From assembly GCF_001904615.1 (NCBI RefSeq), contig NZ_MRBY01000038.1, positions 1 to 42,071 on the forward strand: DNA of 42,071 bases, in the 5' to 3' direction. The stretch is from [Limnothrix rosea] IAM M-220 (GTDB lineage: Bacteria > Cyanobacteriota > Cyanobacteriia > Cyanobacteriales > MRBY01). Below, piece after piece: positions 8,266 through 26,757 of the stretch. Position 1 is the stretch's first letter, and each line of letters opens with the position of its first letter. Both the position numbers and the translations under genes were made by a program. The notes below the pieces were generated by a model that saw only the letters and a list, made by a program, of their open reading frames with translations, was not told where the DNA came from and did not search any database.

Positions 8266-8808
8266 ATGCGTATTTACGGAAATCGACAAATAAAAACCCT
8301 TGCAGGGGAGCAAACCCGTCCCACTTTAGCGAAGGTGCGGGAGGCTATTTTTAATATTTGGCAGGGTCAAGTGCAGGGCTGTGTGTGGCTGGATCTTTGT
8401 GCGGGTTCTGGGTCGATGGGGGCAGAAGCTTTATGTCGTGGGGCAATGAAAGCAGTTGGCATTGAGAAAAATCCCCGTGGCTGCCGCATTATTAATGAAA
8501 ATTGGCAGAAAGTGACCAAGGAACATCAGTCTTTTCAAGTGCTCAAAGGCGATGTCTTGAAACGTATGGAAGCTCTGGGGGGCGATCGCTTTGATCTGAT
8601 TTATTTTGATCCGCCCTACGCCGCAAAATTTTACGATGCTGTTCTCGAAAAAGTTATTGCTCTAGATTTACTCAATCCCGACGGAGAAATGGCTGTGGAG
8701 TATGACCCCAAGCTCTGGCAACCCATTGAGTTAGAAGGTCTCAAAAAAATCAAAGATAAACATTATGGCAAGTCGGCGATCGCCTTCTACTGTCGTACTA
8801 ATCTTTGA
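8266..8808 (+). CDS. rsmD: 16S rRNA (guanine-N2)-methyltransferase RsmD
   Basis: RsmD transfers a methyl group from S-adenosylmethionine to N2 of G966 (E. coli numbering) of 16S rRNA in the small subunit. The SAM-binding motif LDLCAGSGSMG lies near residue 42 and the catalytic DPPY motif is at 115-118. The N-terminal RPTLAKVREAIFNI is also a family signature. At 180 residues the length is normal. It follows ycf46 closely, and its 3' end overlaps the 3' end of the convergent Uma2 gene by 11 bases. Confidence 0.94.
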   Translation: MRIYGNRQIKTLAGEQTRPTLAKVREAIFNIWQGQVQGCVWLDLCAGSGSMGAEALCRGAMKAVGIEKNPRGCRIINENWQKVTKEHQSFQVLKGDVLKRMEALGGDRFDLIYFDPPYAAKFYDAVLEKVIALDLLNPDGEMAVEYDPKLWQPIELEGLKKIKDKHYGKSAIAFYCRTNL

Positions 8809-9448
8809 TTTTCTCTTTCAAAAACGCTTGAAAGTTTTGCATCGCCGCCGTTTCATCTTCCATTGCCTCAGCGAGAAAATTATATAAATCTTCTTTTTGA
8901 ATAATTGGAAATAGTGGACTTATTTCACGCTCTTGGTACTCACCATTTTGGAGAGTGAATATGCGTAAGGTTGCGCCGTCATAACGCCAAAATTCCGGCA
9001 CACCCATTGTTGCGTAAAGCTTATTTTTGTTGACATCCGTATTGGTGATATCTACCTCTACAATTAGATCTGGTGGTGAATCTCTATCAAAATCAACATT
9101 GCGCCCAGTAACTTTAGGCTGATTTTGAATGTAATATGCACAGTCTGGTTCCGCACCTTTTTTTATATCCTGACGATTCATGGTCGTTGAACCCATCGTT
9201 TTCATTTTCAATCCCATCTCAAGGACAAGCAGTCGAATGAACAGTTCAATTAGACGTAGGGCAAATTCATGATCTTCTAAAGGCACGGTGATTTCTAGAG
9301 TTCCATCGCTAAATGAGAGACGAGAATGACGGTCTTGGGGAAGCGCATTAAAAATTTGGAGATAGTCATCCCAACTGAGGCCATGAAACGCGACCCGTTT
9401 CTCTCCCACTGGCTTTGGGATATCTACTTTGACTGGTGTTGCGACCAT
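8798..9448 (-). CDS. Uma2-family (DUF820) putative endonuclease, copy 1
   Basis: This 216-residue protein belongs to the Uma2 family, a restriction-endonuclease-like fold greatly expanded in cyanobacteria. Visible signatures are the EPDCAYYI segment, the PPDLIVEVD strand (acidic active-site residues of the PD-(D/E)XK type) and GVPEFWRYD. It is a close paralogue of the gene at 19422-20060; by eye about two thirds of residues match across the full length. The biological role of this family is not settled. It converges on rsmD, with 3' ends overlapping by 11 bases. Confidence 0.85.
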   Translation of the reverse strand: MVATPVKVDIPKPVGEKRVAFHGLSWDDYLQIFNALPQDRHSRLSFSDGTLEITVPLEDHEFALRLIELFIRLLVLEMGLKMKTMGSTTMNRQDIKKGAEPDCAYYIQNQPKVTGRNVDFDRDSPPDLIVEVDITNTDVNKNKLYATMGVPEFWRYDGATLRIFTLQNGEYQEREISPLFPIIQKEDLYNFLAEAMEDETAAMQNFQAFLKEKIKD

Positions 9449-15017: not shown

Positions 15018-15290
15018 ATGCCTAACAATCAAAGTTTTGAGTTTGATGAAAACAAAAGCCAGACTAACAAACAAAAACACGGTCTAGATTTCATCGAAGC
15101 TCAAGTACTCTGGGATGATAATGAATTAATTCAAATTAGGGGGACAAGCGACAATGAACCGCGATTTTTGGTTATTGGCAAGATCAAAGATAAATATTGG
15201 ACAGCCGTAATTACTTACCGATTAGATAATATTAGAATTATTTCTGTACGTCGTTCCCGCATTAATGAGATGAGATGGTATGAAAGCTGA
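15018..15290 (+). CDS. brnT: BrnT-family toxin
   Basis: This 90-residue protein matches the BrnT ribonuclease toxin family: FEFDENKSQTNKQKHGLDF at the N-terminus, then FIEAQVLWDD, FLVIGKI and the C-terminal IISVRRSRINE. BrnT has a RelE-like fold and cleaves RNA; its activity is blocked by BrnA. The conserved HG(I/L)DF and RxS/ARR-like segments are both present, so it is probably intact. The antitoxin gene begins 11 bases before its stop. The spacer before it is shared with the NACHT gene in the other direction. Confidence 0.88.
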   Translation: MPNNQSFEFDENKSQTNKQKHGLDFIEAQVLWDDNELIQIRGTSDNEPRFLVIGKIKDKYWTAVITYRLDNIRIISVRRSRINEMRWYES

Positions 15291-15504
15291 AGAGTTTGAT
15301 GCAAAATTTGAAGCTGGTGAGGATATGACGGAGTTTTTGGATTTCTCAACAGCTAGACGACCGAATAGAGAAAAGAAAAAAGTAGAATTGAATTTACCTG
15401 TTTGGATCATTCGAAAGTTAGAGAGTGAAGCGGAAAAAGAAGGGATTTCTATGCAAGTTTATTTAGAAAATTATTTAGCTCAACAGTTAATGACTATTGT
15501 ATAA
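15280..15504 (+). CDS. brnA: BrnA-like / CopG-type antitoxin
   Basis: This 74-residue protein overlaps the end of brnT by 11 bases, the usual BrnT-BrnA order. The N-terminal half is acidic and flexible (EEFDAKFEAGEDM). The C-terminal half has a ribbon-helix-helix look: a beta strand KKVELNLPVWII, then helices through EKEGISMQVYLENYL. Antitoxins of this family bind their own operator, so the shared spacer at 14918-15017 may hold that site; none was identified by eye. Confidence 0.82.
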   Translation: MKAEEFDAKFEAGEDMTEFLDFSTARRPNREKKKVELNLPVWIIRKLESEAEKEGISMQVYLENYLAQQLMTIV

Positions 15505-16563: not shown

Positions 16564-16640
16564 CAGATATCAGACATCAGATTTCAGATATCAAGTAACC
16601 AATTCCTGATACCTGATCACTGTTCACTGATACCTGTCCA
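16564..16640. repeat. Heptamer repeat block, left of the first Y RNA
   Basis: The block is built from 7-nt units related to CTGATAC and CTGTTCA, with variants of ATCAGAC at its left side. The orientation is mostly opposite to the block at 16769, so the two can pair across the RNA gene between them. Confidence 0.7.
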
Positions 16641-16641
16641 A

Positions 16642-16768
16642 GAGCGGATAGTTTAATGGCAAAACACCAACACTTCCTTTGTTCACAACTTACCTGAAAA
16701 GGTCGAAGAATCTAAGGTTATCGCCTTCAACGCGGGAGATGGGGGTTCGAATCCCCTTCCGTTCACCA
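16642..16768 (+). ncRNA. tRNA-mimicking Y RNA (YrlA-like), first copy
   Basis: This 127-nt RNA gene has a complete tRNA frame. The acceptor GAGCGGA (16642-16648) pairs fully with TCCGTTC (16758-16764), followed by A and an encoded CCA. The D-arm is GTTT/AAAC around AATGGCA. The T-arm is GGGGG/CCCCT with loop TTCGAAT. The anticodon arm is replaced by about 70 nt. That insert contains the hairpin ACCT-GAAA-AGGT (16692-16703), then CGAAGAAT, enclosed by CCTT/AAGG. GGTCGAAG resembles the Ro-binding strand of animal Y RNAs (GGUCCGAAG). A 7-nt loop CTTCAAC on a CGC/GCG stem follows at 16722-16734 and resembles a real anticodon arm. Bacterial Y RNAs with tRNA domains are an established class lying near Ro60 genes. 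Processing by RNase P/Z and tRNA-type modification are likely but inferred. Confidence 0.85.
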
Positions 16769-16859
16769 AATTCAGTTATCAGTTAACAGTTATCAGTTAA
16801 CAGTTATCAGTTATCAGTTAACAGTCATCAAAATCCTACTGGTCACTAATACCTGATAA
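16769..16859. repeat. Heptamer repeat block between the two Y RNAs
   Basis: Units alternate CAGTTAT and CAGTTAA from about 16774 to 16826, then decay into CTGGTCACTAATACCTGATAA. The left part is in the reverse orientation to the block at 16564 and the tail resembles the complement. Copy number is likely unstable by slippage. Confidence 0.75.
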
Positions 16860-16977
16860 GGGCGGGTAGCTCAGTTGGTAGAGCAGTAATTACCTTTCCT
16901 TAATTTATTTACTCACCTGCAAAGGTCGAAGAATTAAGGGTTACCGGACGGGAGTTCAAGTCTCCCCCCGTCCACCA
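16860..16977 (+). ncRNA. tRNA-mimicking Y RNA (YrlA-like), second copy
   Basis: This 118-nt RNA gene again has a perfect tRNA frame. The acceptor GGGCGGG pairs with CCCGTCC (one G-U), then A and CCA. The D-arm is GCTC/GAGC with loop AGTTGGTA, which is the canonical tRNA sequence. The T-arm is GGGAG/CTCCC with loop TTCAAGT. In place of the anticodon arm, CCTTAATT (16898-16905) pairs with AATTAAGG (16932-16939) and encloses ACCT-GCAA-AGGT (16915-16926), followed by CGAAG. The outer GTAA/TTAC pairing joins this to the tRNA core. ACCTTT (16892-16897) could alternatively pair with AAAGGT (16921-16926), so two folds compete. There is no usable anticodon, so it is not a decoding tRNA. It ends 142 bases before the Ro gene. 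Confidence 0.88.
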
Positions 16978-17097
16978 AATTTAGAGACATCAGACATCAG
17001 ATTACAAATATCCAATCAGTTCACCTCTGATACCCGATACCTGTTCACTGATAACTGTTCACTGATAACTGTTCACTGATACCTGTTCACTGATTTA
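16978..17097. repeat. Heptamer repeat block before the Ro gene
   Basis: It begins with ATCAGAC units, then runs CTGATAC, CTGTTCA and CTGATAA several times up to 17092. This is the complement orientation of the CAGTTAT/CAGTTAA block at 16769, so the second Y RNA sits inside a long imperfect inverted repeat. Confidence 0.75.
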
Positions 17098-17119: not shown

Positions 17120-18718
17120 ATGTCATATAAATTTTTCACTTCCCGCAAGCAAACCCCTCAGTCTCAGCCGATCGCCGGACGAAAAGCTGAAATGGTGAAA
17201 GGTCGTTCTGGTGGTTATCATTTTGACCCTGGTATGTGGACAATGTTAAAGCGTTGTTTGCTGATCGGTACTGCCCAAAGCACTTTCTATGCCGATAAGC
17301 ACGAATTGACAGGCGAATTTACCCAAGTTGTAAATCAATGTGTGGCAGCAGATCCTGCTCGCGTTGCCAAGGAAATTGCCTATGCCAGTGATGGTCACGC
17401 GATCAATAACAGTGCACCTATCTACGCATTAACGCTCTTATCTATGGGTGATTCCCCTGATGCAAAGCGTGCTTTCATCGAGATTTTCCCTAAGGTAATT
17501 CGTACTGGTAGTCATTTTTATGAGTGGTTGAGTTACTCGAAGGCCTTGCGTGGTTTCGGTAAAGTGGTACGCGAATGCGGTACGGCTTGGTTGAGTAACA
17601 CCAATGTGAAAGCCCTTGCGTATCAATTGCTGAAATACCAACAGCGTCATGGTTTCACGAATCGCGATGTGTTGCGTTTATTTCACGTGAAGCCTGCCAC
17701 CGTCGAGCATCAAGCCCTCTATAACTGGGTGGTGAAAGGTTGGGATGTTTTGCCAAAAGAAGCTCCCGCAAAATCCCTAGAGCAAATCTGGTGGTATGAG
17801 TGGCTGAAGCGTAATCCTAGCCAAACCAAAGTGGCGATCGCCGCAGGTCGTTTAACCCATGAAATGGTTGCACCTATTGGTGAAATGGATGAAGGTGCAT
17901 GGAAACTCTTGATGCAGGATATGCCGATTGGGGCGTTATTGCGTAACCTTGGTTCCCTGACTGAAATCGGTGTGCTGCGCGCTCACTACAACAAACAGTT
18001 GAAGTATGTGGCTTCTGTATTGAATGACAGAAATCGCCTCCGTAAGGGTCGCATCCATCCTATCGATGTGCTGAAGGCGTTAAAAACCTATCAATCTGGC
18101 GGTAAGTTGGGTCGCAGTAAGAAAACATGGAATGTCATTCCGCGCATTGTGGACATTCTTGAAAAAGCTCTTGAGATGTCCTTCGAGACAATTCCTGCTA
18201 CAGGCAAAACCTTTTTACACGCGGTGGATGTATCTGGCTCTATGTCCTATTACAACGTGAGTTCAGTGAATTTGACCTGTGCTGAAATTGCGACAGTAAT
18301 GGCATTGGTGAGCGCAAAAGCAGAAAAGAACTATGCGATTCGTGGTTTCTCTACTTCCTTCAAGGATTTAGGTATCATGGCTTCCGATAGCTTCCAATCT
18401 GCGATGGAGAAAACCACCAATCAAAATTTTGGTGGAACAGATGCCTCCTGTGCCTACAAGTGGGCGATTAAGCATAAATTTTGGGCAGATGTGATTTGCT
18501 TCTGGACGGACTGCGAATCTTGGGCGGGAACTCAGCCAAGCCAAGCTTTGGAGAAATATCGCCGCAAGGTAAACCCCGATGTGAAAGCGGTTTATGTGAC
18601 GCTAGCTCCCTACAAATTAAGTTTGGTAGATCCCAAAGATCCTAATTCTTGGGATTTGGGTGGCTTCGATCCTTCCATGCCTCGCATCATTCAGGCGATC
18701 GCCAACGGTGATCTTTAA
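17120..18718 (+). CDS. rsr: Ro60/Rsr RNA-binding ring protein (TROVE plus vWA)
   Basis: This 532-residue protein is a full-length bacterial Ro60 orthologue, close in size to known family members. Residues 10-350 form the TROVE domain, a HEAT-like ring that binds single-stranded ends of misfolded RNA inside the hole and Y RNA outside. The C-terminal vWA domain has an intact metal (MIDAS) site: DVSGS with D370, S372 and S374, T440 in GGTDAS, and D464 in FWTDCES. In Deinococcus, Y RNA links Ro60 to polynucleotide phosphorylase for structured RNA decay. The two tRNA-like Y RNA genes lie directly upstream on the same strand. A UUCG terminator follows 14 bases after the stop. The last 43 codons and this terminator recur downstream in altered copies. 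Confidence 0.95.
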   Translation: MSYKFFTSRKQTPQSQPIAGRKAEMVKGRSGGYHFDPGMWTMLKRCLLIGTAQSTFYADKHELTGEFTQVVNQCVAADPARVAKEIAYASDGHAINNSAPIYALTLLSMGDSPDAKRAFIEIFPKVIRTGSHFYEWLSYSKALRGFGKVVRECGTAWLSNTNVKALAYQLLKYQQRHGFTNRDVLRLFHVKPATVEHQALYNWVVKGWDVLPKEAPAKSLEQIWWYEWLKRNPSQTKVAIAAGRLTHEMVAPIGEMDEGAWKLLMQDMPIGALLRNLGSLTEIGVLRAHYNKQLKYVASVLNDRNRLRKGRIHPIDVLKALKTYQSGGKLGRSKKTWNVIPRIVDILEKALEMSFETIPATGKTFLHAVDVSGSMSYYNVSSVNLTCAEIATVMALVSAKAEKNYAIRGFSTSFKDLGIMASDSFQSAMEKTTNQNFGGTDASCAYKWAIKHKFWADVICFWTDCESWAGTQPSQALEKYRRKVNPDVKAVYVTLAPYKLSLVDPKDPNSWDLGGFDPSMPRIIQAIANGDL

Positions 18719-18732
18719 AACTCAACTTCAAT

Positions 18733-18756
18733 GCAGATATCCTTCGGGGTATCTGC
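18733..18756 (+). terminator. Rho-independent terminator of the Ro gene
   Basis: A 10-bp stem beginning GCAGATAT is closed by a C-TTCG-G loop and followed by TTTTCTTT. It directly follows the Ro stop codon, and the same hairpin recurs at 20148 and 20553. Confidence 0.88.
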
Positions 18757-18855
18757 TTTTCTTTGGAGAAGCTAATCGGCGATCTCGACTCAATTTAGTT
18801 TTTTTGAACTACACTAGATGTGGTGTGATAATCAAATTTCCAACTCAGTTAAATA

Positions 18856-19395
18856 ATGAATAGCAATACGGCAAAAGCTCTTTTTAGCAAAATTCCTGTG
18901 AGGTCTCTCTCTCCAGATGCTTATATTGATGCTTACATGATATCTAGCGGAGAGAAGCGAATTGGGATTGAAACTGTTGGTTTGATTTTAGACCAGTCAG
19001 AAGAGTTTTTCTTCGAGCAAAAAACGGCTCAAAAAATAGCCCATCTCAAAAAACAAAATAAATTTGATGGTCGCTTTATTTGGGTTCAAGTAGACGATGG
19101 CGAGAATATCCTCAGCATTGCCAAGACAATTAGCATTCGTGACTTTACAAAGCTAATTCTTTGTGAGGCTGTTGAGAATAAAAATGTAAAAGCTATTATG
19201 TTGCTTGGTGCTTTTGCTGAAACTGGTCTGGAAAAAGTCGTGAATGATGCTTTTGATGGTCACGATTTTAGCTACTTCAACAAAAAGGCAGGTCACTATC
19301 TTGGCTGGACTGCAGAAGAATGGAACGAATCAGTCAGATACAATCGTGAAGAGTTAAAAGCTTTATATCCTTGGGGAATGCCTGCCAATTTATAA
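18856..19395 (+). CDS. Hypothetical cytosolic protein, 179 residues
   Basis: I do not recognise this protein. It is soluble, with alternating beta and alpha character (GRFIWVQVDDGENIL, AIMLLGAFAET) and a C-terminal aromatic patch (YLGWTAEEWNESV). There is no signal peptide and no repeat. The A/T-rich codon use differs from the Ro gene and resembles that of the xisH/xisI pair, which suggests later acquisition. It lies between the Ro terminator and a Uma2 gene, within the interval bracketed by copies of the Ro 3' end. Confidence 0.6.
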   Translation: MNSNTAKALFSKIPVRSLSPDAYIDAYMISSGEKRIGIETVGLILDQSEEFFFEQKTAQKIAHLKKQNKFDGRFIWVQVDDGENILSIAKTISIRDFTKLILCEAVENKNVKAIMLLGAFAETGLEKVVNDAFDGHDFSYFNKKAGHYLGWTAEEWNESVRYNREELKALYPWGMPANL

Positions 19396-19421
19396 ACAGA
19401 CTTTAGGAAAAAACTGAATAC

Positions 19422-20060
19422 TTATTTCCGTAAAAAGTTACGTAAATTTTGTTCTGCTTGAATTTCATCTTGTTGAGCTTCAGCGAGAAAGTGATATAAA
19501 TCTTCTTTTTGGATAGTGGGAAAAGTCGGGCTGATTTCACATTCTTGATATTTCTCTTCTACTAGCTGGTAAATACTTAAAATTTCTCCGTTGTAGCGCC
19601 AAAACTCAGGAACACCCATCGCTGCGTAGAGCTGATTCTTATCGATATCGGTATTAGTAATATCTACTTCAACAACTAAATCTGGTGGTGGATCTTTTTC
19701 AAAATCGACATTTCGCCCAGCAACTTTGGGTTGATTTTGAATGTAATATGCACAATCTGGTTCAGAGCCTTTTTGTAAATCTTCCCGATTCATAGTGGTT
19801 GAACCCATTGTTTTCATCTTCATACCCAGTTCAAAGACAAGAATGAGGATAAATCGTTCGATAAGGCGCAGGGCAAACTCGTGATCTTCTAAAGGCATTG
19901 TGATTTCTAAGTTTGTGCCATCGAAAGTAAGACGGGAATTGCGGCGTTGAGGTAAAGCATTAAAAATTTTGAGGTAATCAGCCCAGCTCAATCCGTTGAA
20001 GATAACGCGCTGTTCTCCAAGTGGTCGGTACGCTTTTGGTTTGACTGGACTTGCAACCAT
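19422..20060 (-). CDS. Uma2-family (DUF820) putative endonuclease, copy 2
   Basis: At 212 residues this is a close paralogue of the gene at 8798-9448. The same blocks are present, including MGSTTMNR, EPDCAYYIQNQPKV and PPDLVVEVD, the last with the acidic residues expected for the nuclease-like core. Differences cluster at both ends. It is convergent with the hypothetical gene upstream, and a fragment of the Ro 3' end with its terminator lies just beyond its start. It probably entered or was duplicated as part of the rearrangement downstream of the Ro gene. Function of the family is unsettled. Confidence 0.85.
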   Translation of the reverse strand: MVASPVKPKAYRPLGEQRVIFNGLSWADYLKIFNALPQRRNSRLTFDGTNLEITMPLEDHEFALRLIERFILILVFELGMKMKTMGSTTMNREDLQKGSEPDCAYYIQNQPKVAGRNVDFEKDPPPDLVVEVDITNTDIDKNQLYAAMGVPEFWRYNGEILSIYQLVEEKYQECEISPTFPTIQKEDLYHFLAEAQQDEIQAEQNLRNFLRK

Positions 20061-20108
20061 TACTTTTCACGCAAGGATAAAGGCTATCTCCATGATAACG
20101 ATAGCTCG

Positions 20109-20171
20109 GCGATCGCCAACGGTGATCTCTAAAAACTCAACTTCAATGTAGATATCCTTCGGGGTATCTGT
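20109..20171 (+). repeat. Second copy of the Ro 3' end and its terminator
   Basis: From the HIP1 site at 20109 the sequence follows the Ro gene tail (the last few codons and the stop region) and then the terminator stem, with TTCG loop, at 20148-20171. Two stem positions are now G-U pairs, so the hairpin still forms and is followed by TTTTTCTT. Homology to the Ro tail begins exactly at the HIP1 palindrome. No coding function remains. Confidence 0.8.
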
Positions 20172-20231
20172 TTTTCTTGGAGTCTTATTTAAAATAGGAG
20201 AGTGTATCCTGCCAGATCATTCCTCAAAGCA

Positions 20232-20532
20232 ATGGCAAAAGATTTAAGATTTATTCCATGACCTCGTAAAAAAAGCCTTAGAGAAAGATGGCTGGACAAT
20301 TACTGATGATCCTCTTGCCGTGAAAGCTGGAGGGGTCGAGTTTTTTATCGACTTGGGGATTGAGAGATTGGTTGGTGCAGAACGAAATGGCGAGAGGATA
20401 GCGGTTTATGTGACGCTAGCTCCTTATCAATTAAGTTTGGTCGATCCTAAAGATCCTCATTCTTGGGATTTGGGTGGCTTCGATCCTTCCATGCCTAAAA
20501 TCATTCAGGCGATCGCCAACGGTGACCTTTAA
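20232..20532 (+). pseudogene. Broken xisH fused to the 3' end of the Ro gene
   Basis: From ATG 20232 the sequence matches the N-terminal third of the intact xisH at 20635 (DGWTITDDPL, AERNGE). A tandem 7-bp duplication (AAGATTT twice, 20239-20252) shifts the frame and gives a stop after nine codons. At about 20401 it switches in frame to the Ro C-terminus (YVTLAPYQLSLVDPKD to the final GDL). The switch occurs at a short shared stretch, AGCGGTT versus AGCAGTT in xisH. A 70-residue frame from 20320 remains open but has no obvious start signal. The Ro part has several silent and a few amino-acid changes relative to the real gene. Confidence 0.85.
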
Positions 20533-20552
20533 AAACAAAAACTAGACTTAAT

Positions 20553-20576
20553 GCAGATATCTTTCGGGGTATCTGT
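20553..20576 (+). terminator. Third copy of the Ro-type UUCG terminator
   Basis: The same stem as at 18733, with one C-to-T change near the loop, is followed by an eight-T run. It closes the chimeric xisH/Ro remnant and precedes the intact xisH by 60 bases. Confidence 0.85.
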
Positions 20577-20634
20577 TTTTTTCGATCTCCTTTAAAATGA
20601 GGGAGTAAATCTCGCCAACTCATCACACAAAATA

Positions 20635-21048
20635 ATGGCAAAAGATTTATTTCATGATCTCGTTAAAAAAGCCCTAGAAAATGATGGCTGGACAATCACC
20701 GATGATCCTTTAATGGTTAAAGTTGGAGATACTCAGCTATATGTTGATTTAGGCTTAGAAAAATTAGTTTCAGCAGAACGTAATGGCGAAAAAATAGCAG
20801 TTGAAATTAAAAGCTTTCTAAATCCTTCTGCAATGGCTGATTTTCATTTAGCTCTAGGTCAATATGTCAATTATCGCTTCGCTCTTGAAAAATCAGAAGA
20901 AAACCGAAAACTATATCTTGCTGTTCCCGATATAGCCTATGAAAAGTTTTTCAAAAAAGAATTTATAAAAATGGTTATTGAGCAGCACAATCTAAACCTT
21001 ATTGTTTACAGTACTGATGAGGAGGAAATTTTGAAATGGATAGGCTAG
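20635..21048 (+). CDS. xisH: XisH-family protein (fdxN-element excision factor-like)
   Basis: This 137-residue protein is XisH, first described with XisF and XisI as a control factor for excision of the fdxN element in heterocyst formers. It is now found widely in cyanobacteria without that element. The visible core is DGWTITDDP at the N-terminus, LYVDLGLEKL, and AVEIKSF, whose E-x-K fits the PD-(D/E)XK nuclease-like fold. It overlaps xisI by 13 bases, so the two are translationally coupled. There is no recombinase (XisF) in the window, so a role in excision here is doubtful. A broken second copy lies just upstream. Confidence 0.92.
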   Translation: MAKDLFHDLVKKALENDGWTITDDPLMVKVGDTQLYVDLGLEKLVSAERNGEKIAVEIKSFLNPSAMADFHLALGQYVNYRFALEKSEENRKLYLAVPDIAYEKFFKKEFIKMVIEQHNLNLIVYSTDEEEILKWIG

Positions 21049-21371
21049 ATTTATACCGTCAAATTATCAAAGATATTCTCACTGAGTACTCTCAATATAA
21101 GCCGTCCAATGGAGAGATTGAAGTCCAACTTTGGCTTGATGAAGAACGAGATCATTACCAGATTTTAGGAGTGGGCTGGGATGGCAAAAAACGGGTTTAT
21201 GGTTGCTCCGTTCATTTCGATATTAAAGACGGTAAAATTTGGTTGCAAGAAAATAATACTGAAATAGATTTTGCACAAGAACTTGTGGATAAAGGTGTTC
21301 CAAAAGAAGATATTGTCATCGGTTTTCATACACCACTATTTCGGCAATATTCTGGATACGCTCTGTGTTGA
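21036..21371 (+). CDS. xisI: XisI-family protein
   Basis: XisI is the usual partner of XisH. This 111-residue copy has the family's core: a helical N-terminus (LYRQIIKDILTEY), the beta strand EVQLWLDEERDHYQIL, GWDGKKRVYG, and the C-terminal VPKEDIVIGFHTP. It looks intact and starts inside the last codons of xisH. Biochemical function is not established. A two-component toxin-antitoxin-like behaviour is possible given the compact overlapping layout, but it is not shown by the sequence. Confidence 0.92.
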   Translation: MDRLDLYRQIIKDILTEYSQYKPSNGEIEVQLWLDEERDHYQILGVGWDGKKRVYGCSVHFDIKDGKIWLQENNTEIDFAQELVDKGVPKEDIVIGFHTPLFRQYSGYALC

Positions 21372-21426: not shown

Positions 21427-21651
21427 ATGACTACAACCCTTTCAATTCCTGATGAATTAGCAGAAAAAGCAAACGTTTTAGCCAAAACTCTAGGAGTATC
21501 TTTGGATGAACTCTCTGTGATGGCACTAGAGGCATTACTGAAAAAATATGAACGCTCTTCTGATGCTGATTTAGATTTTGAGCAAAAAATGGCGATCGCC
21601 CAACGCGGTATCCGCAAGTATCAAGAGGCATTAATCGAGTTGGCGAAATGA
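21427..21651 (+). CDS. Phd/CopG-like antitoxin of the Doc pair
   Basis: This 74-residue protein begins with a beta strand (TTTLSIPDEL) followed by two helices (AEKANVLAKTL, SLDELSVMALEAL), the outline of a ribbon-helix-helix DNA-binding domain. A flexible C-terminal tail follows that would cover the toxin. Its stop overlaps the ATG of the Doc gene by four bases (ATGA). It would be expected to repress its own promoter. The preceding 55 bases contain a HIP1 site but no operator I can point to. Confidence 0.75.
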   Translation: MTTTLSIPDELAEKANVLAKTLGVSLDELSVMALEALLKKYERSSDADLDFEQKMAIAQRGIRKYQEALIELAK

Positions 21652-22055
21652 AGGAACCCGTTTGGCTCAATGCCGCAGATATTTATGGCATTCACAAAGA
21701 GATTATTTCTGTTTCCGGTGGAAAATCAGGCATTCTCGATGTTGGCTTGATTGCTTCGAGTTTAAATAAAGCAAAAAATGTTTTTTACTACTCAGATGAT
21801 TCAGATATTTTTGAGCTAGCTGCGGTTTATGGCTATGGCTTCGTGAAAAATCACTGTTTCATAGAAGGAAATATACAAGTTGGCCTCATCGCTGTGTACA
21901 CATTTCTAGTGATCAATGGCTATGAATTAAATGCAATTAATGATGATGTTATAAAAGTTTTTTCTGAACTTGCTGCTAGTCAAGACTCCCAAACAACAGA
22001 GATTGAAAAACTATCACAATGGTTAAAGAGCAATACTCAATCCACTCAAATTTAG
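21648..22055 (+). CDS. Doc-like (Fic-fold) toxin with degenerate active site
   Basis: This 135-residue protein has the Doc fold: the entry strand VWLNAADIYGIHKEI, the GIRD-like segment SGILDVGLIAS, and a Fic helix. Active Doc and Fic enzymes have H-x-F-x-(D/E)-G-N-K-R. Here H69, F71, E73, G74 and N75 are kept, but K and R are replaced by Ile76 and Gln77. Each change is one base away from a canonical codon (AAA to ATA, CGA to CAA). Loss of the Arg should abolish or alter phosphotransfer. It may therefore be an inactivated toxin retained with its antitoxin, or a variant activity. Confidence 0.82.
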   Translation: MKEPVWLNAADIYGIHKEIISVSGGKSGILDVGLIASSLNKAKNVFYYSDDSDIFELAAVYGYGFVKNHCFIEGNIQVGLIAVYTFLVINGYELNAINDDVIKVFSELAASQDSQTTEIEKLSQWLKSNTQSTQI

Positions 22056-22889: not shown

Positions 22890-25800
22890 ATGAGAAACTT
22901 GGAGCCTAGAGTAAATCAACTCAAGATTCAAAACGAGCTCCTTGCTCAAATTGCCAAGGGAGAACCCTTAGCGGATATCCTAAAAAAATTAGTTAACGCC
23001 ATCGAAGCCACCCTCGATCAAACCATCTGCTCCGTCGTCCTACTACAACAGCCCAGCAATAAGCTCCGCCACAGTTCAGCGCCTCACCTACCAGAAGCTT
23101 ACAAAGACTACTACAAAACAATTGATCACGACCCCCTCCAAGACAATGCATCTCCTTGCACCAGAGCAATTTTAAGGTGCAAACGGGTCATTCTCCCGGA
23201 TATTGCGGCTTCTTCCCTCACTTCAGACTATAAAAATATCGCCACGGGCAATGGCCTATATGCTTGTTGGTCAATGCCAATCTTAGGTAGTCATAATCAT
23301 GTTTTAGGGGCTTTCGCTCTCTACTACAAAACACGGCGATCGCCCCAAGACCATGAAATAGAAATCGTCACTCAACTCACTAACCTTGCCGTCATTGCCA
23401 TCGAGCGCCACCACCTAGAAGAGCAACAGCGCCAGAGAGAAGCACAATTTTTAAAAATACAACAGGTCGCCCATATCGGTAACTGGAATTTCGATGTACC
23501 GACTCAAACTGTTACCTGGTCACCGGAAATGTTCCGTATATACGGCTTAACCGGGCAAACCACTGCGCCGTCCTATGCAGAATTTCTCCAAATGCTCCCA
23601 GAGGAAACCAGCCAAAATCTACAACAGTTTGTCAGCCGCGCCTTAACCACAGGGGAACCTTACACGATTGAATACAGTTTTGTGCGACCCGATGGCAGCA
23701 TCAGTCACCATGAATGTCGGGGGGAAGTTGAGTACAACCATCAAGGTCAAGTCCAGCGTTTAATCGGCACCGCCCTAGACATTACAGAGCGACGCAACTC
23801 TGAGCTGGCGCTACAAAATTTGGTCGCGGGTACGGCCATGACTGGCCAAGATTTTTTTTCGGCATTAGTACAAAACATTGCTGAGGCTTTAGGTGTTGCC
23901 CATGCCATTGTCACGGAAAAAGTTGGCGATACGCTCACAACCTTGGCATTTTGGGCAGATGGTCAGTTAATGCCCACCTATAAATATGCCCTCGCCCATA
24001 CGCCCTGTGAGCATGTTTTTCGACAGCGAGAATTTTTTTGTAATCAGAATGTCCAGCAGTATTTTCCCCTTGATGGGGATTTAGTCAAACTTGAGGCAGA
24101 AAGTTATCTCGGTATTGCTTTGGTGAATAGGCAGGATCAAGAAATTGGTCATCTTTATATTCTCCATAAACAGACGATCGCCAATCCAGGCTGGGCGAAA
24201 CAAGTACTACAAGTTTTTGCCGCCCGCGCCGCCACAGAGTTAGAGCGACAACAGGCCGAAAGTACCATCAAACAACAGTTAGCAGCCATGGAAGCAGCCG
24301 TTGATGGGATCAGTCTTTTAAGGGATGGCATTTATGTCTATGCCAATCAAGCTCATCTTTCTTTATTTGGCTATGACAACGCCGACGAGTTAATGGGTCA
24401 ATCTTGGCGGGATCTCCATTCCCCAGCAGAAGTAGAGCGCATGGAAACAGAGGTATTACCACACTTGGCACGGGAACAGGCTTGGCAAGGGGAGGCGATC
24501 GCCACCCGCAAAGACGGTTCAACCTTTACAGGCGAAATTTCTTGGACAATGACAGACGAAGGCTTACAGATCCAAGTTTATCGAGATGTGAGTGAGCGCA
24601 AACAAGCCGAAAATGCCCTACAAAACCTGATCCGTGGGACTGCCGCCAGCACTGGAGAAGACTTTTTCCCCGCCTTGACCCGCCACATTGCGACGGCTCT
24701 CGATGTCTCCTATGCCATTGTTTCTGAGTACACAGACGAAAAACTAAAAACCTTAGCATTTTGGGCGAATGGCGAATTACAACCGAATCTTATCTACAAT
24801 CCAGTACACACCCCTTGCGAACTGACCTTACAGCGCGGGCAATTCTACTGTGAACATTCCGTTCAACAACGCTTTCCGAAAGATCACGATTTGGTCGCCA
24901 TGGGAGCCGATAGCTATTTAGGCATTGCCCTAAAAGACTCCAATGGTGAGTCAATCGGAGATCTCTGTATTTTGCATCAGGATAAAATTCTAGCGCCCCA
25001 CCGAGCAGAGCAAATTTTGCAGGTCTTTGCCGCCCGTGCCTCAGTGGAAGTCGAACGTCTACGAGCCAATGCCGCAAACAAAAGACAACTCGAAGCTATC
25101 GAAGCAGCGATTGATGGCATTAGTATTCTCCAGAATGGTCAATATCTCTACGTCAATCAAGCTTACCTAGAGTTATTTGGCTATGCCGACGCAGCAGAAC
25201 TAATTGGTAAAAGTTGGCGCTCCCTCTACTCTACGGAGGAAATGGCCCGGCTTGAAACACAGGTCATACCGATGCTCCAAAAGAAACGAGCGTGGCAAGG
25301 GGAGGCGATCGCCACCCGCAAAGACGGTTCAACCTTTGCCCAGGGACTATCTCTCACCCTCACTGACGATAATTTATTAATTTCAGTGTGCCGCGACATC
25401 AGCGAACTAAAACAAGCCCAAGCCTTAATTACCCACAATGCCCTCCATGATCCCCTCACCAAATTACCCAACCGCACGCTGCTATTAGAACGATTAGCCT
25501 TAGCCATTCAGCGCGCCCAACGCCTTAACAAATACAACTATGCTGTACTTTTCCTCGATCTAGACCGCTTTAAAGTCATCAATGACAGCTTAGGTCATAC
25601 AGTCGGGGATCAACTCTTGGTGGCGATCGCCAAAAAATTAAAGACCCACCTCCGCAAAACAGACCTCGTTGCCCGTTTAGGCGGCGACGAATTCCTCATC
25701 CTATTAGAAGATTTTCACCATATCGACGATGTTATCCATATTGTCGAGCGCATGTTAGCAGATTGTCAGACACCCTTAACCATTAACGAACATAAAATTT

Positions 25801-26757
25801 TTTACAGGCATGAGTATCGGCATCGCCCTAGGCAACCAAGACTACAAACAAGCCGGCGAACTCATTCGAGATGCAGATATTGCCATGTATCGAGCCAAAA
25901 GCCAAGCCAACAATTCCTACAAATTTTTCGATACCGAAATGCACGCCCAGGCACTCAGACGCTTAACCATAGAAGCAGATTTGCGCCAAGCCATTAACCA
26001 ACAAGAATTCATGGTTTATTACCAACCGATTATGGATATGTCCCGCAATCAACTTGTCGGATTTGAAGCCCTAGTCCGTTGGCACCATCCCCATCGAGGG
26101 TTAATTTCGCCCCAAGAATTTATCCCGATCGCCGAAGAAATTGGCTTTATTGTCGACCTTGACCGCTGGGTTTTAGAACAAGCATGTCAGCAAATTAAAT
26201 ATTGGCGACAAACCTTTCCTTGTGCCGCCGCCCTCAAAGTCGGTGTCAATTTATCAGCCCAGGATTTACGAACAACAACCTTACTTCAAGATGTAGATAA
26301 TATCTTACAAAAAACAAAACTACCCGGTTGTGCCCTTACGTTAGAAATTACAGAAAGTATGTTGGTGACAGATATTGACCAAACCATTCATTTACTCACT
26401 CAACTGGCCGCAAGGGACATTCAAATTAGCATCGACGACTTTGGCACAGGCTACTCATCTTTAAATTATCTCCATCGTTTCCCGGTAAATAATCTCAAAA
26501 TCGATCAATCTTTTGTGAGTCAAATGCAATCGGAAAATCGGAACTACAGAGTAGTTGAAACAATTATTACTCTTAGTAATCAACTGGGATTAACCACCGT
26601 TGCAGAAGGAATTGAGACAGAAGATCAACTAGCATATTTACAACAATTAGGCTGCCAACTCGGACAAGGTTATCTATTTTCTAGACCTTTACCCGCCAAA
26701 GATATTGAAGCTCTATTTTTTCAGACTAGTACTTTTACCGACTGTCAAGCTTCCTAA
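22890..26757 (+). CDS. GAF/PAS-GGDEF-EAL cyclic-di-GMP protein, frameshifted
   Basis: This is a giant two-domain c-di-GMP protein interrupted by a frameshift. The order is GAF (about 10-170) and PAS (180-300), then a duplicated unit of GAF-like plus PAS (305-570 and 575-835). GGDEF follows, with the GGDEF motif at 931-935, and then EAL with FEALVRWHHP. The first frame runs to 25997 but leaves the GGDEF sense frame at a T6 run (25798-25803). The continuation MSIGIALGNQD is in another frame, up to 26757. Removing one T gives one frame of 1288 residues. GGDEF synthesises and EAL degrades c-di-GMP; both key motifs are present. The shift could be a real mutation, slippage or a sequencing error. 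As written, the protein would lose the last part of GGDEF and all of EAL. Confidence 0.88.

Follow-up and report, generated by a model that had tools for sequence, protein, structure and literature searches.

HIP1 and the repeated 3′ end of a Ro gene in [Limnothrix rosea] IAM M-220

How does the 3′ end of a gene, together with its terminator, come to stand three times at one locus with other genes lying between the copies? The question is raised by 42,071 nucleotides (nt) of [Limnothrix rosea] IAM M-220 (contig NZ_MRBY01000038.1, forward strand), hereafter the window, in which the tail of a Ro (TROVE/vWA_Ro60) gene is repeated and one of the repeats begins at HIP1, a short palindrome with thousands of copies per genome in such cyanobacteria, and the subject of an old idea that it is a site of DNA cutting and rejoining. 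The answer we consider probable is that the 3′ end of Ro is a recombination-prone boundary, where exchange between HIP1 sites was followed by homologous swapping and then, in the case of the third copy, by an illegitimate join.

Ro is followed by a hairpin with a cUUCGg loop and a T-rich run. The original prediction placed tail and terminator at 18733, 20148 and 20553, and all three copies are indeed there, the second hairpin starting at 20149. Copy 2 (20108-20182) is 93% identical to 18694-18768 and holds the last 25 nt of Ro plus the hairpin, whereas copy 3 (20397-20534 plus its hairpin) is 92% identical to the final ~136-138 nt of the Ro region; the former retains 8 Ro codons and the latter ~46. 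The copies score E 9e-61 and 2e-24 in a search of their own genome, which gave no third extra copy among the 40 of 294 first-look candidates scored. Hairpins 1, 2 and 3 fold at -16.1, -10.5 and -11.1 kcal/mol, none of them equalled by any of 200 shuffles, and they probably still terminate transcription of the plus strand. For the hairpin, 98% of cells are paired; compensatory change is no more frequent than in shuffles, so this speaks for conservation of the hairpin and not for selection on it. Copies 1 and 2 bracket, as had been noticed from the start, a hypothetical gene of 179 amino acids (aa) and a Uma2 gene on the opposite strand; a frameshifted and truncated xisH between copies 2 and 3 had been overlooked. 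The 179-aa gene gave no match in Pfam; of 290 other genomes in the order 15 have a homologue of it (at most 48% identical), and of five congeners none.

Copy 2 has its left edge on the initial G of GGCGATCGCC, which bears out at the nucleotide level the claim that this copy starts exactly at HIP1. It is not alone in doing so. A Ro match was found in 15 of 59 relatives, and the closest of these, G005 and G004, also bear extra modules of tail plus terminator, flanked by genes other than those of the window (G003, G004, G005 and G046 denote comparison genomes, own1 to own3 the window's copies 1 to 3, and the letters a to d modules). G005 has one extra module, adjoining another Uma2 gene. Those of G004 number three, and their neighbours are a gene of 290 aa, a frame of 70 aa and a cold-shock gene. 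Of these modules G004b, next to a different gene (the 290-aa one, without a homologue in the 290 other genomes searched), likewise has GGCGATCGCC as its exact start, and for G005b and G004c the start is a degraded HIP1-like word, while the left flanks differ among all modules. A GCGATCGC/GGCGATCGCC junction is thus present in copy 2 and G004b, and absent from copy 3 and G004d. On the far side of the hairpin, exact HIP1 lies within 30 nt in 4 of the 10 modules (chance ~0.001 if they were independent, which shared descent does not allow), and the sequence past terminator 1 of the window is similar to the G004b flank over ~25-29 nt before diverging, the likeness ending at a second HIP1 in G004 and at a HIP1-like word in the window.

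The same association appears when Ro loci are taken together. With three of 50 loci omitted for want of a 3′ end (L064, L068 and L070), 47 loci of relatives remained, four of them with less than 3 kb downstream. Within the flanks available, the coding tail of Ro is repeated at one of the 47 (G004), the others having only non-coding repeats, and HIP1 within the final 45 nt of Ro is likewise found at one of them (G004), plus the window and G005. Consequently HIP1 in the tail and a repeated tail coincide at three of three loci, and both are absent from the other 46 of the 49 loci in total. In G046 the match is limited to the tail region, and is a decayed Ro rather than a module of tail and terminator. 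This genome, of another genus, has a 157-aa frame (L019 1312-1785) in which the last 61 residues of the decayed Ro (57% identity) follow an apparent internal deletion. G004 also has a second, diverged Ro gene (82%; L074 1-4187), cut by the contig end, with a hairpin of its own and a fragment of xisH ~3 kb downstream.

HIP1 is found on the other side of the joins as well. The Uma2 gene of the window has GGCGATCGCC at -57 relative to its ATG, and its three closest full-length homologues (in G004, in G003 and at 8801-9448 of the window itself, 10 kb away) have it at -69, -70 and -69; these three upstream flanks were examined out of 30 other matches, a partial match (L113, 60%) having been aligned without its flank being among them. 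The spacer between HIP1 and ATG can be aligned in both pairs compared (1 of 2000 shuffles as good for the window and L107, 0 of 2000 for L108 and L112), which makes HIP1 part of the Uma2 unit no less than of Ro. At G005b the join is a HIP1 with one changed letter, ~18 nt past the stop of another Uma2 gene, and exact HIP1 stands 7-22 nt past the stop in six of nine homologues of that gene (L267-L278, L266), two of the six, from sister genomes, being alike. Both parental sides therefore bear the palindrome, that is, the Ro tail in the window, G004 and G005, the upstream side of Uma2, and the 3′ side of the G005 cargo. Judging from these sequences, HIP1 probably stood on both sides of the joins beside the Uma2 genes of the window and of G005, and Uma2 genes may commonly be bordered by it. 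For copy 2, exchange between two HIP1 sites is a well supported best reading. The suggestion that HIP1 served as the recombination point accordingly stands for this copy, with its exact edge, its HIP1-bearing Uma2 homologues and its counterpart in a relative, and fails for copy 3, which starts inside the xisH remnant.

On the left of copy 3 the change from xisH to Ro takes place at AGC[G/A]GTT, a microhomology of ~7 nt without HIP1, and the two copies of xisH are only 74% identical. The tail of copy 3 is 91.9% identical to that of copy 1 and 91.2% identical to that of G004's Ro, which is the range seen between species, and copy 1 is as distant from the tail of G005a as it is from copy 3. Among the changed residues, a Q and a K match the Ro of other species, and an H is absent from the others aligned. 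As its tail is as far from copy 1 as that of another species, copy 3 looks like a merged foreign Ro allele rather than a recent duplicate, and the word triplication is too simple. The modules as wholes tell of mixed relationships, with 95% identity between own1 and own2, 93% between G004c and G005a of different species, and 83% between own3 and G005b, also of different species, which share an insertion. On this comparison, three recent duplications are less likely than exchange among strains or modules that predate the species.

These observations can be arranged in three steps. In the first, a HIP1 upstream of a Uma2 gene would have been exchanged with the HIP1 in the tail of Ro, leaving a module of HIP1, tail and terminator beside the new cargo; the junction is there to be read, and the exchange is what would best account for it. 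In the second, the 60-180 nt of homology in tail and terminator would permit ordinary homologous recombination, swapping genes between modules among strains, with the result that each species has a different gene set. In the third, a segment of Ro tail, terminator and xisHI from another strain would have been joined illegitimately into the resident xisH at the ~7 nt of microhomology seen at the junction. No dedicated recombinase need be invoked, since generic short-homology recombination, favoured by the abundance of HIP1, could suffice.

Several points weigh against giving HIP1 so large a part. It is not the sole joining point, since G004d starts ~10 nt and copy 3 ~110 nt upstream of it. Fewer than four events may underlie the four starts found at HIP1 or close to it, and as the window, G004 and G005 are close kin, the association of HIP1 with repeated tails may go back to a single one. 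The second Ro gene of G004 carries GCGATCGC in its tail, yet has no extra module in its 4.2-kb contig. Beyond HIP1, in the sole comparison made (window and L107), 71 of 2000 shuffles scored equally, so the flanks are not cleanly unrelated, and three of the nine homologues of the G005 Uma2 gene are without HIP1 near the stop, the closest of them (88%) included. None of 264 repeat edges falls at HIP1 in a further 46 Ro loci of cyanobacteria, whose HIP1 density is half as great. At synteny edges, sharing of 26 AT-rich control words is raised by the same factor as that of HIP1 (6 of 214, with 1.9 expected).

Some of these points would be equally expected if the 3′ regions of Ro had been imported from other strains by homology-facilitated illegitimate recombination, with HIP1 as just one short match among many, to which the non-HIP1 join of copy 3 lends itself. 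The wider genome speaks in part for this. Two congeneric chromosomes of 1.2 Mb each, ~90% identical, were compared; with inversions between them, a single 1.2-Mb chain aligned only 0.69 Mb, and the full-length indel counts come from the alignment that replaced it. There were 50 one-sided indels (a separate comparison of the initial 400 kb gave 21 of at least 50 bp), of which six have direct repeats of at least 8 nt at both edges, HIP1 being in two of the six and missing from the other four. Synteny-block edges share HIP1 at 8 of 214 against 2.6 expected (P 0.005), an enrichment not distinguishable from that of the control words. In the congeners, the edges of local repeats (at least 80% identity, 30-1000 nt, both strands) fall at HIP1 in 3 of 58 cases, that is in 3 of 29 repeat pairs and with copy 2 left out, whereas among 322 interior windows one does (P 0.012), and a looser set (75% identity, 30-400 nt, direct repeats only) has a HIP1 edge in 4 of 29 pairs. 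As a general joining point in these genomes HIP1 is therefore suggestive only. At the Ro locus itself, four modules from three species begin at HIP1, two of them exactly and two at a degraded form, and the cargo borders carry it as well; this is more than we would ask of one short match among many, and such import without a special part for HIP1 seems to us unlikely. Insertions of 688 bp and 5738 bp relative to a sister genome (L156 16725-17502; L165 226-5975) have HIP1-bearing direct repeats at both edges.

The opposite departure, in which pairs of HIP1 would be preferred exchange sites, perhaps dependent on an enzyme and on methylation, pasting accessory genes (xisHI and HIP1-bordered Uma2 among them) behind the end of a gene that carries a terminator, we regard as an unlikely extension. 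If true, it would amount to a cassette array without an integrase, built of repeated terminator modules that run from HIP1 to HIP1.

Simple tandem duplication of the region around the Ro tail, with genes inserted and copies decayed later and the HIP1 edge a coincidence, would account for direct repeats in a row and for the closeness of own1 and own2. However, HIP1 occurs in the window once per 593 nt, so an edge within 2 nt of it has a chance near 1% (taking edges as independent, which shared descent contradicts), and the coincidence would have to extend to the relative's module beside another gene and to the HIP1 at the join in the cargo homologues. Copy 3, no nearer to copy 1 than another species' tail is and lying between dissimilar xisH copies, fits no better, and we hold duplication to be improbable.

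That a mobile element or integrase-dependent cassette brought in the terminator could be thought of because the cargo differs per relative between repeated flanks; the two modules of G005, moreover, have a gene for a DDE_3 endonuclease between them and, just past the second, a weak InsA-like match that falls below the Pfam cut-off. Integron cassette arrays likewise hold differing genes between repeated hairpin-bearing sites, and vary among strains, which is the likeness; unlike their sites, the repeats here are a gene tail and its terminator, and no integrase or recombinase was present among the 22 window proteins scanned (not every open reading frame), three of them without a Pfam match. When the ten modules were made into a covariance model and this was run on six genomes (150 first-look candidates scored per genome), its strong matches were only those ten, all at Ro genes; of its weak matches elsewhere the best (L090, L095 and L096, E 5.8e-4 to 0.011) showed HIP1 or a hairpin by eye, and no module. 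Phages gave no match to the module, viral contigs none to an exact pattern, and plasmid matches are limited to four Ro genes; in PCC 7002 and PCC 8807, where Ro is on a plasmid, the gene listed next is one for siderophore transport. With no known element carrying this terminator in plasmids, phages, viral contigs or the six genomes (the very case that the original prediction had named as its refutation), and with module starts that vary (at HIP1, or 10 nt and 110 nt upstream) instead of a constant recombination site, this explanation is very unlikely.

Table 1. Features of the Ro locus, in positions of the window.
Feature	Position	Strand	Basis
Ro (TROVE/vWA_Ro60) gene, 532 aa	17120..18718	+	Pfam vWA_Ro60 7e-36, TROVE 9e-17
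HIP1 (GGCGATCGCC) within Ro tail	18694..18703		sequence, HIP1 list
UUCG hairpin terminator, copy 1	18733..18756	+	fold, z -6.8
HIP1-like GGCGATCTCG after terminator 1; likeness to flank of module G004b stops here	18778..18787		flank comparison by eye
Hypothetical gene, 179 aa	18856..19395	+	homologue search
Uma2 family gene	19422..20060	-	Pfam Uma2 2e-19
Copy 2: Ro tail and terminator, left edge exactly HIP1 (20108-20117)	20108..20182	+	sequence comparison
Hairpin terminator, copy 2	20149..20170	+	fold
xisH remnant, frameshifted, ending at copy 3 junction; ATG at 20232	20232..20402	+	sequence comparison
Copy 3: ~46 last Ro codons and terminator; left join at AGC[G/A]GTT microhomology	20397..20580	+	sequence comparison
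Hairpin terminator, copy 3	20553..20576	+	fold
xisH, intact, downstream of copy 3	20635..21048	+	Pfam XisH 7e-57
xisI, intact, downstream of copy 3	21036..21371	+	Pfam XisI 2e-45

Around the locus (Table 1) some other features may be mentioned. Just upstream of Ro, 16640-16980 holds at least two tRNA-like elements with heptad repeats between them, which we take to be possibly Y-RNA-like partners of Ro; the Rfam tRNA model gives 49 bits at 16860-16974 and 25 bits, below its cut-off, at 16701-16765, ARAGORN reports no tRNA in the region, and DNA like this precedes Ro in four relatives. At 15018-15504 a BrnT-type toxin gene (Pfam) is followed by a short frame, a possible antitoxin, and at 21427-22055 a Fic/DOC family gene and the 74-aa frame ahead of it, which has no match in Pfam, may likewise form a toxin-antitoxin pair. 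The overlapping frames at 22890-25997 and 25810-26757 are apparently, from their translation and the list of frames, one sensor gene split by a frameshift.

Recombination at HIP1 has a literature of its own. In PMC4390886 (Elhai 2015), the function of HIP1 is described as little known, with some indication of site-specific recombination. Evidence is cited there that connects the palindrome with site-specific recombination in PCC 7002 and also with illegitimate recombination; among the works it cites are Akiyama 1998, on HIP1-linked recombination of plasmids in Synechococcus sp. PCC 7002, and Robinson 1997, on HIP1-promoted excision. The same text finds no evidence tying HIP1 to homologous recombination. 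Plasmid recombination at HIP1 is also cited in PMC9239245, which describes in S. elongatus PCC 7942 a 188.6-kb inversion at porin genes bearing HIP1. With the PCC 7002 system, found in a strain of Picosynechococcus, the genus to which the comparison genome PCC 7117 is assigned, the Ro locus shares the palindrome; it differs in being a genomic locus with accessory genes instead of plasmids, in having non-HIP1 joins too, and in being known from sequence alone. Excision resembles it in that HIP1 is the direct repeat at the edge of a rearrangement (as at the two congener indels of 688 and 5738 bp), whereas the Ro locus is a join that gained sequence and not a clean excision. The inversion also has HIP1 near a chromosomal rearrangement; there, however, HIP1 lies ahead of the breakpoint, and the event is an inversion with no repeated module. 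Neither HIP1-bounded terminator modules nor an array of Ro tails was described in the titles and abstract openings searched, a set outside which most subscription papers lie. Since HIP1-linked recombination is already cited for PCC 7002, the Ro locus is a genomic variant of a known idea.

HIP1 is highly over-represented in many cyanobacterial genomes, and its function is unsettled. A natural locus where it marks the join on both parental sides, with differing outcomes in three related genomes, offers a concrete test case, easy to amplify and close to the laboratory strain PCC 7002.

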